A stretch of 64,000 bases of DNA from Alphaproteobacteria bacterium (GTDB lineage: Bacteria > Pseudomonadota > Alphaproteobacteria > UBA6615), in the NCBI GenBank assembly GCA_039980135.1, contig JBDXCV010000006.1, positions 124,001-188,000 on the forward strand. Reading direction: 5' to 3'. Shown here in pieces: positions 34,341-35,576 of the stretch. The position numbers were made by a program, and so were the translations under genes. The notes beneath the pieces were generated by a model. That model was not told the DNA's origin. It worked only from the letters and a program-made list of their open reading frames with translations, and ran no database searches. The first letter of the stretch is position 1, and each line of letters begins with the position of its first letter.

Positions 34341-35576
34341 ATGACCGACTATCCAGGTTTCGATTTTGAAGTGACCCGCCGCGTGACGGGCCAGGACGGC
34401 TGGCCCGATGCGGCGCGGCGCGGCCGTATCACCACGCCCCATGGGGTGATCGAGACCCCGGCCTTTATATTCTGTGCGACCCGCGGCGCGTTGCGTGGCG
34501 TGTTGCCAGCCCAGGCGCGGGCCGAATCCACCCAGATCATTCTCGGCAACACCTACCATCTGATGCTCCAGCCCGGCGCGGCGCGCGTGGCGGCATTGGG
34601 CGGCCTGCACAAGATGATGGGCTGGGACGGTCCGATGCTGACGGATTCGGGCGGATTCCAGATTTTTTCCCTGGGTCGGGGCGGGGATGAGAAAGAAATC
34701 AAGGGCAGCCGCACGGACGTTCGCGACCCGTCCCTGCTGGCGATCGACGAGGCCGGCGCGTCGTTCCGTTCCTATGTCGACGGGGCCCGGGTGACGCTGA
34801 CGCCGGAAGATTCGATCCGTATTCAGCGCCAGATCGGCGCCGACATCATTCTCGTCCTCGACGAGTGCACACCCTACCATGTCGATCGTGACTACACGGC
34901 CCAATCGATGGGGCTGACCCACCGCTGGGCGTTGCGCTCTATCACGGCCTTCCAGGAAGCCGAGGAAGGCTCGGCGGGACCGCAGGGGCTGTACGGGATC
35001 ATCCAGGGCGGGGTCTATGAAGACCTTCGCAAGGAGAGCGCGGAGTTCACCGCGGCCCAGCCCTATTTCGGCTACGCGGTCGGCGGCTGTCTCGGCGGTA
35101 CGCCGGAAGAGATGGACGAGGTGGTCGCCCTCGCCATGGCGCCACTCAACGCCGCAGCCACGACCCCGCGTCCGATCCACCTGCTCGGCGTGGGCAGCGT
35201 GCGCGATGTCTGGAACGGGGTCGCCAAGGGCATCGACACCTTCGATTGCGTCAACCCGACCCGTCTGGCACGCCATGGCAGCGCCTATATCAGGCCCGGG
35301 CTGGGTGAGACGGACAATGGCCGCGAGTTCATCAACATCAAGAATGCGCGGTTTCGCGAGGACCCCACGCCGCTCGATCCCGAATGCGATTGCGCGACTT
35401 GCACCAGCGTCTCGCGAGCCTACCTGCACCACCTCGTGAAGGCGGGTGAACTGAACGCGGTGTCGCTGCTGGCGGTCCACAATGTGCGGTTCATGAACCG
35501 TCTGCTCGAAGACGTGCGCGCCGCAATCGACAATGATGACTACGCCGTGCGGCGGGCCTGGTGGATCGACGGCTGA
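34341..35576 (+). CDS. tgt: tRNA-guanine transglycosylase with insertion and altered base-binding loop
   Basis: A 411-residue TGT, the queuosine-pathway enzyme that exchanges G34 of tRNA. Catalytic/binding residues: DSGGFQIF (D102), DECTPY (D174), [15 protein letters not shown] (nucleophile Asp) and the zinc site ECDCATC with a downstream His. Relative to bacterial enzymes of about 375 residues, it has about 18 extra residues after FSLG ([20 protein letters not shown]...). The substrate-specificity loop reads GGCLGGT instead of GGLAVGE; the Gly at the Val position is typical of queuine-using eukaryotic TGTs. The ATG at 34341 puts the first catalytic Asp at 102, as in Zymomonas TGT. Confidence 0.92.

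Follow-up and report, generated by a model that had tools for sequence, protein, structure and literature searches.

tRNA-guanine transglycosylases (TGTs) are the enzymes that exchange a base in the anticodon of tRNA. For uncultured bacteria, whether such an enzyme takes preQ1 or queuine is now predicted from the loop of its base pocket together with gene content, and the motif alone may mispredict. A Gly at position 233 (Z. mobilis numbering) gives space for the cyclopentene of queuine (PMC3660597; PMC6165067), and human QTRT1 has Gly232/Gly233 together with Val161 (PMC6165067). In the Z. mobilis enzyme, the exchange Val233Gly opens the space for queuine yet confers no queuine insertion; its Km for preQ1 is unchanged (0.6 vs 0.9 uM) and its kcat for preQ1 is ~17-fold lower (PMC3660597). 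Ala232Ser lowers the kcat for preQ1 ~100-fold, and C158V raises the preQ1 Km ~18-fold, with affinity lost (PMC3660597). Going by the kcat losses of V233G and Ala232Ser, changes in the loop can harm preQ1 use. For Bartonella, preQ1 has been proposed as the final modification in a tgt-only genome (PMC11570991).

The window TGT and its base pocket

The window, that is, the whole 64,000-nucleotide stretch of alphaproteobacterial DNA analysed here, carries a complete tgt open reading frame with an ATG start at 34341 and the following features around and within it.

33936..34223, + strand: rpmB (L28), conserved upstream neighbour of tgt (PF00830, synteny)
34341..35576, + strand: tgt, long-form tRNA-guanine(34) transglycosylase of 411 aa (TIGR00430, PF01702, AlphaFold model)
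34644..34646, + strand: equivalent of the catalytic Asp102 (alignment to Z. mobilis TGT)
34662..34763, + strand: 34-residue segment from SGGFQ to FRSYVDG, containing the 18-residue insertion (alignment, model)
34860..34877, + strand: DECTPY, with the equivalents of Asp156 and Cys158 kept, as in the bacterial preQ1 type (alignment; role of Cys158 from PMC3660597)
35082..35102, + strand: base-pocket loop GGCLGGT, residues 248-254, corresponding to Z. mobilis 229-235 (alignment)
35244..35246, + strand: residue 302, equivalent of the nucleophile Asp280 (alignment to Z. mobilis TGT)
35600..36556, - strand: protein with a phytase-like esterase domain, conserved downstream neighbour (PF13449, synteny)

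The product scores 397.5 bits against TIGR00430, above the curated cut-off of 306.75, and 389.5 bits against PF01702. Its AlphaFold model (pLDDT 86) finds its best PDB match in 1q2r, the covalent TGT-RNA intermediate of Z. mobilis, at a TM score of 0.84-0.92; the closest solved structures are those of the Z. mobilis TGT, and the predicted model confirms the TGT fold. The Zn ligands C349, C351, C354 and H380 are all kept. Elsewhere in the window, at 29112-32135, lies a gene for a 1007-aa protein, apparently a coiled coil with an N-terminal membrane segment, whose only Pfam matches are apolipophorin/apolipoprotein-like.

The initial annotation had remarked on the loop GGCLGGT in place of GGLAVGE and on an 18-residue insertion, and alignment to the Z. 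mobilis TGT bears out both. Relative to Z. mobilis G229-E235, the loop carries L231C, A232L, V233G and E235T, and the spacing from SGGFQ to FRSYVDG is 34 residues vs 16 in canonical TGTs. In the model the insertion directly follows the active-site SGGFQ segment, and residues 113-124 have a pLDDT below 50. The description of the pocket as eukaryotic-like holds for the Gly at position 233 but not for Cys158, which is bacterial, nor for the Thr at the place of Glu235. Eukaryotic QTRT1 enzymes keep Glu where the window TGT has Thr, and Glu235 supports the peptide flip of the preQ1-bound state, so that the Thr counts against preQ1 insertion. By letter, GGCLG stands outside the published queuine-type motif GG[LS][AS]G, with the Gly at position 233 present. 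Combining Cys158 with Gly233, the window TGT is a natural counterpart of the V233G variant, presumably with compensating changes.

Queuosine genes of the window genome

The window TGT is the only TGT-domain protein found in its genome (G000; 98.8% complete, 15 contigs). Eukaryotic TGTs have QTRT2 as a partner subunit to QTRT1; the search of this genome gave the one protein with the domain. On contig C11 of the same genome queA, queF (QueF-II) and queG are contiguous (L111 7952-10660), all above NCBIfam cut-offs, and the gap between queA and queF amounts to ~30-70 nt, varying with the queF start. The initial annotation had pointed to the preQ1 route and to queA and queG as the genes to look for: queA, queF and queG were found, and queC gave no match above cut-off in this genome. 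The full de novo route, which it had set against its own queuine reading, is thus only half present. Because queC is absent, the genome looks like that of a salvager of preQ0 or preQ1 and not of a de novo maker.

QPTR, the queuosine-precursor transporter, was also absent genome-wide, both in a Pfam search and with a QPTR protein of the genus as query. Here lpxR adjoins queA (L111 7760-7952), and sister genomes have QPTR between these two genes. With QueC and QPTR both missing, the genome lacks a recognised source of preQ0 or preQ1, which counts against preQ1 insertion; MFS proteins are known as alternative preQ1 transporters (PMC11130926). A search with PF10343 (queuosine salvage hydrolase) returned no match here and none in the control genomes either, so that this negative is uninformative, and an Rfam scan of 16 loci gave no preQ1 riboswitches.

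A large clade of long-form TGTs

Related TGTs were collected on 80 loci from species genomes. All readable loops among them are GG[CST]LG, and every segment that could be measured is of the longer kind. Their carriers include Micavibrio, Holosporales, Paracaedibacteraceae, Midichloriaceae and Puniceicoccales/Opitutae. Since the readable long-form relatives share both loop and insertion and the canonical enzymes are without either, the two features are not chance; from their occurrence across these relatives they are therefore clade traits. They mark a large long-form clade of Alphaproteobacteria and some Verrucomicrobiota, in which neither trait is unusual. The suggestion that this loop might be common in known preQ1-specific alphaproteobacterial TGTs did not hold, as the canonical ones all read GGL[AS][VI]GE.

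Gene content divides along the same line. The relatives set comprises 35 canonical, 33 long-form and 2 unclassed TGTs, with G052 counted among the 35 by score alone. Genomes with a canonical TGT carry queA in 34 of 35 cases, as against none of the 12 long-form genomes outside f1, the family of the window genome (Fisher p 2e-10, uncorrected for relatedness), and queA is absent from 46 of the 49 genomes behind the long-form loci. Among the loci L013-L080, 23 have QPTR upstream of the long tgt and in the same orientation, in 22 cases no more than 551 nt away; for long forms outside f1, a QPTR just upstream of tgt and no queA is what direct queuine salvage would lead one to expect. By contrast, 19 of the 21 long-form genomes of f1 have queA and queG, and none of L001-L012, the queA-positive f1 loci, has QPTR upstream of the long tgt.

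In two further lineages QueA may likewise occur together with a long-form enzyme as the only TGT. G093 (L028) has queA-queF-queG without tgt, and in G115 (L057), a Micavibrio, queA adjoins queH (PF02677; L175 5280-7071); the long form is the sole TGT found in each. As both genomes are metagenome-assembled, contamination is possible. G112 was left uncounted: its queA-like match is a weak one, at 149 bits and with 27-35% identity to the queA proteins with which it was compared.

Position 226 is a Tyr in 18 of the 19 queA-positive f1 enzymes and throughout the canonical sample, and differs in the sampled long forms without queA; G014, G093 and G115 lack this Tyr. Y226, G69 and I151 were considered as convergent, canonical-like residues in f1 and set aside: they are three of 24 discriminating columns in one clade, and only suggestive.

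Locus order and descent in f1

In f1 the long tgt stands in the order rpmB-tgt-(phytase-like)-cobT-cobS. The basal relative G016 reads rpmB-QPTR-tgt-phytase-cobT, and another lineage (L034) rpmB-QPTR-tgt-cobS; the phytase-like neighbour ties the window locus to that of G016, and the QPTR gene is absent at the window locus. Read by eye, a hairpin followed by a T run lies between rpmB and tgt (window 34247-34273); it is likely the terminator of rpmB and occupies the spot of the QPTR gene in G016. The tgt of G016 itself (L131 1426-1529) has a frame break, with ~12 residues missing near the N-terminus, and is either a pseudogene or affected by an assembly error.

Classmates G060, G066 and G076 have queA-tgt-queF with a canonical tgt; in G060 and G066 queG follows, and G060 and G076 have a divergent QPTR. 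The f1 cluster consists of QPTR, queA, (queF) and queG with the tgt slot empty; within f1, G013 has kept a canonical tgt, which adjoins queA, and its genome contains queC. The QPTR by queA in f1 shares 57-68% identity with the QPTRs next to canonical queA-tgt clusters, and 26% with the tgt-adjacent QPTR of G016. Within the long-form tree the queA-positive f1 TGTs form one clade (SH-aLRT 99), whose nearest outgroups are the queA-less G010 and G016, followed by Puniceicoccales. One reading would be an ancestor with both systems and later loss of the canonical tgt and of the QPTR beside the long tgt. The f1 case is a single evolutionary event, seen in genomes most of which are apparently metagenome-assembled.

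Substrate of the window TGT

The initial annotation had proposed queuine rather than preQ1 as the substrate. Its reading of the pocket is sound, and most relatives with the same loop are in genomes without queA; the window genome, however, has queA, queF and queG with this TGT as its only one, and for this genome the proposal is not supported. From the genes present and their order, the descent of the enzyme and the features of its sequence, the kept Cys158 among them, we consider it likely that a queuine-type TGT took over preQ1 insertion in f1 after loss of the canonical tgt. The window TGT would descend from the long-form, queuine-type TGT of a rpmB-QPTR-tgt locus and would have assumed the preQ1-inserting step after a queA-tgt-queF-queG cluster had lost its canonical tgt. 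In the proposed route preQ0 or preQ1 would enter the cell, QueF would reduce preQ0 where present, and the window TGT would put preQ1 in the place of G34 by way of the usual covalent Asp intermediate; QueA would then add the ring to preQ1-tRNA, and QueG would form queuosine by reducing epoxyqueuosine. With its Gly pocket the enzyme may take queuine too, and a dual use of preQ1 and queuine is plausible. It is close to an even chance that preQ1 insertion was re-evolved or retained by a queuine-type TGT with its Gly pocket kept, so that the canonical preQ1 TGT would have been displaced by an enzyme of natural dual specificity; the loop motif would then be an unreliable predictor of queuine salvage in the clade.

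That the window TGT is queuine-specific, with queA, queF and queG as remnants of a lost preQ1 route, appears unlikely. The pocket Gly, the lack of queA from the non-f1 long-form genomes and from nearly all genomes behind long-form loci, and the missing QueC and QPTR of the window genome all speak for it. Against it, queA, queG and QPTR are retained together in 18 of the 19 queA-positive f1 genomes, QPTR being missing from the window genome only, and the QPTR that once stood beside tgt is gone. Within the genus, pairwise dN/dS is 0.05-0.12 for queA, 0.05-0.13 for queG, 0.02-0.13 for QPTR and 0.02-0.11 for tgt; with synonymous distances near or above 1 these values are rough because dS is often above 1, and several queA/queF pairs yielded no estimate. 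The only known substrate of QueA, moreover, is preQ1-tRNA.

The loop of the long form might instead say little about substrate, the whole clade being competent for preQ1 and its tgt-only members ending with preQ1 as in the Bartonella proposal. All long-form genomes in the relatives set have kept Cys158, and the case of Bartonella makes clear that a genome with tgt alone does not have to be a queuine user (PMC11570991), but published work links Gly in the pocket loop to queuine users (PMC11570991), and the QPTRs next to long tgt genes form a distinct subgroup; we regard this reading as quite improbable. It is very improbable that a canonical tgt missed in the assemblies inserts preQ1 while the window TGT inserts queuine in parallel, as the near-complete window genome has one TGT, no tgt stands between queA and queF and, among the long-form f1 genomes with queA, the only sign of a canonical TGT is a fragment in G001 (7% contamination); it adjoins a second queA, on a contig of 5.8 kb (L114, G001:C88), and is probably a contaminant.

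With preQ1 insertion by the long-form enzyme as the preferred reading, f1 is a case in which to study how queuosine can persist when the preQ1 enzyme is exchanged for a different one. Members of the well-supported f1 clade can be paired with close sisters without queA to identify the residues that truly set specificity, position 226 for example.

Comparison with known TGTs

With the canonical TGTs of Z. mobilis and E. coli, the window enzyme shares the fold, the catalytic Asp pair, the Zn site, Cys158, the TIGR00430 family and a genome with queA and queG; it is unlike them in its GGCLGGT loop, its 18-residue insertion and the position of tgt outside the queA cluster. The queuine-salvaging TGTs of Chlamydia trachomatis and of tgt-only Anaplasma and relatives have the same Gly at the Val233 position, and long forms related to the window TGT occur in genomes that lack queA, frequently with QPTR as their neighbour. 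The window genome departs from them in having queA, queF and queG and no QPTR beside tgt, and GGCLG falls outside their GG[LS][AS]G (PMC11570991). Human QTRT1 likewise shares the Gly at position 233 and the next Gly; it has Val161 for Cys158, and its Ser164 contacts queuine, where the window TGT has Cys, Tyr and a clade-specific insertion. In the TGT of Bartonella henselae (PMC11570991), pocket type and gene content also disagree. The two cases are mirror images, a preQ1-type pocket in a tgt-only genome there and a queuine-type pocket with queA and queG here, and the conflict between loop and gene content, in this opposite direction, extends across the whole family f1.
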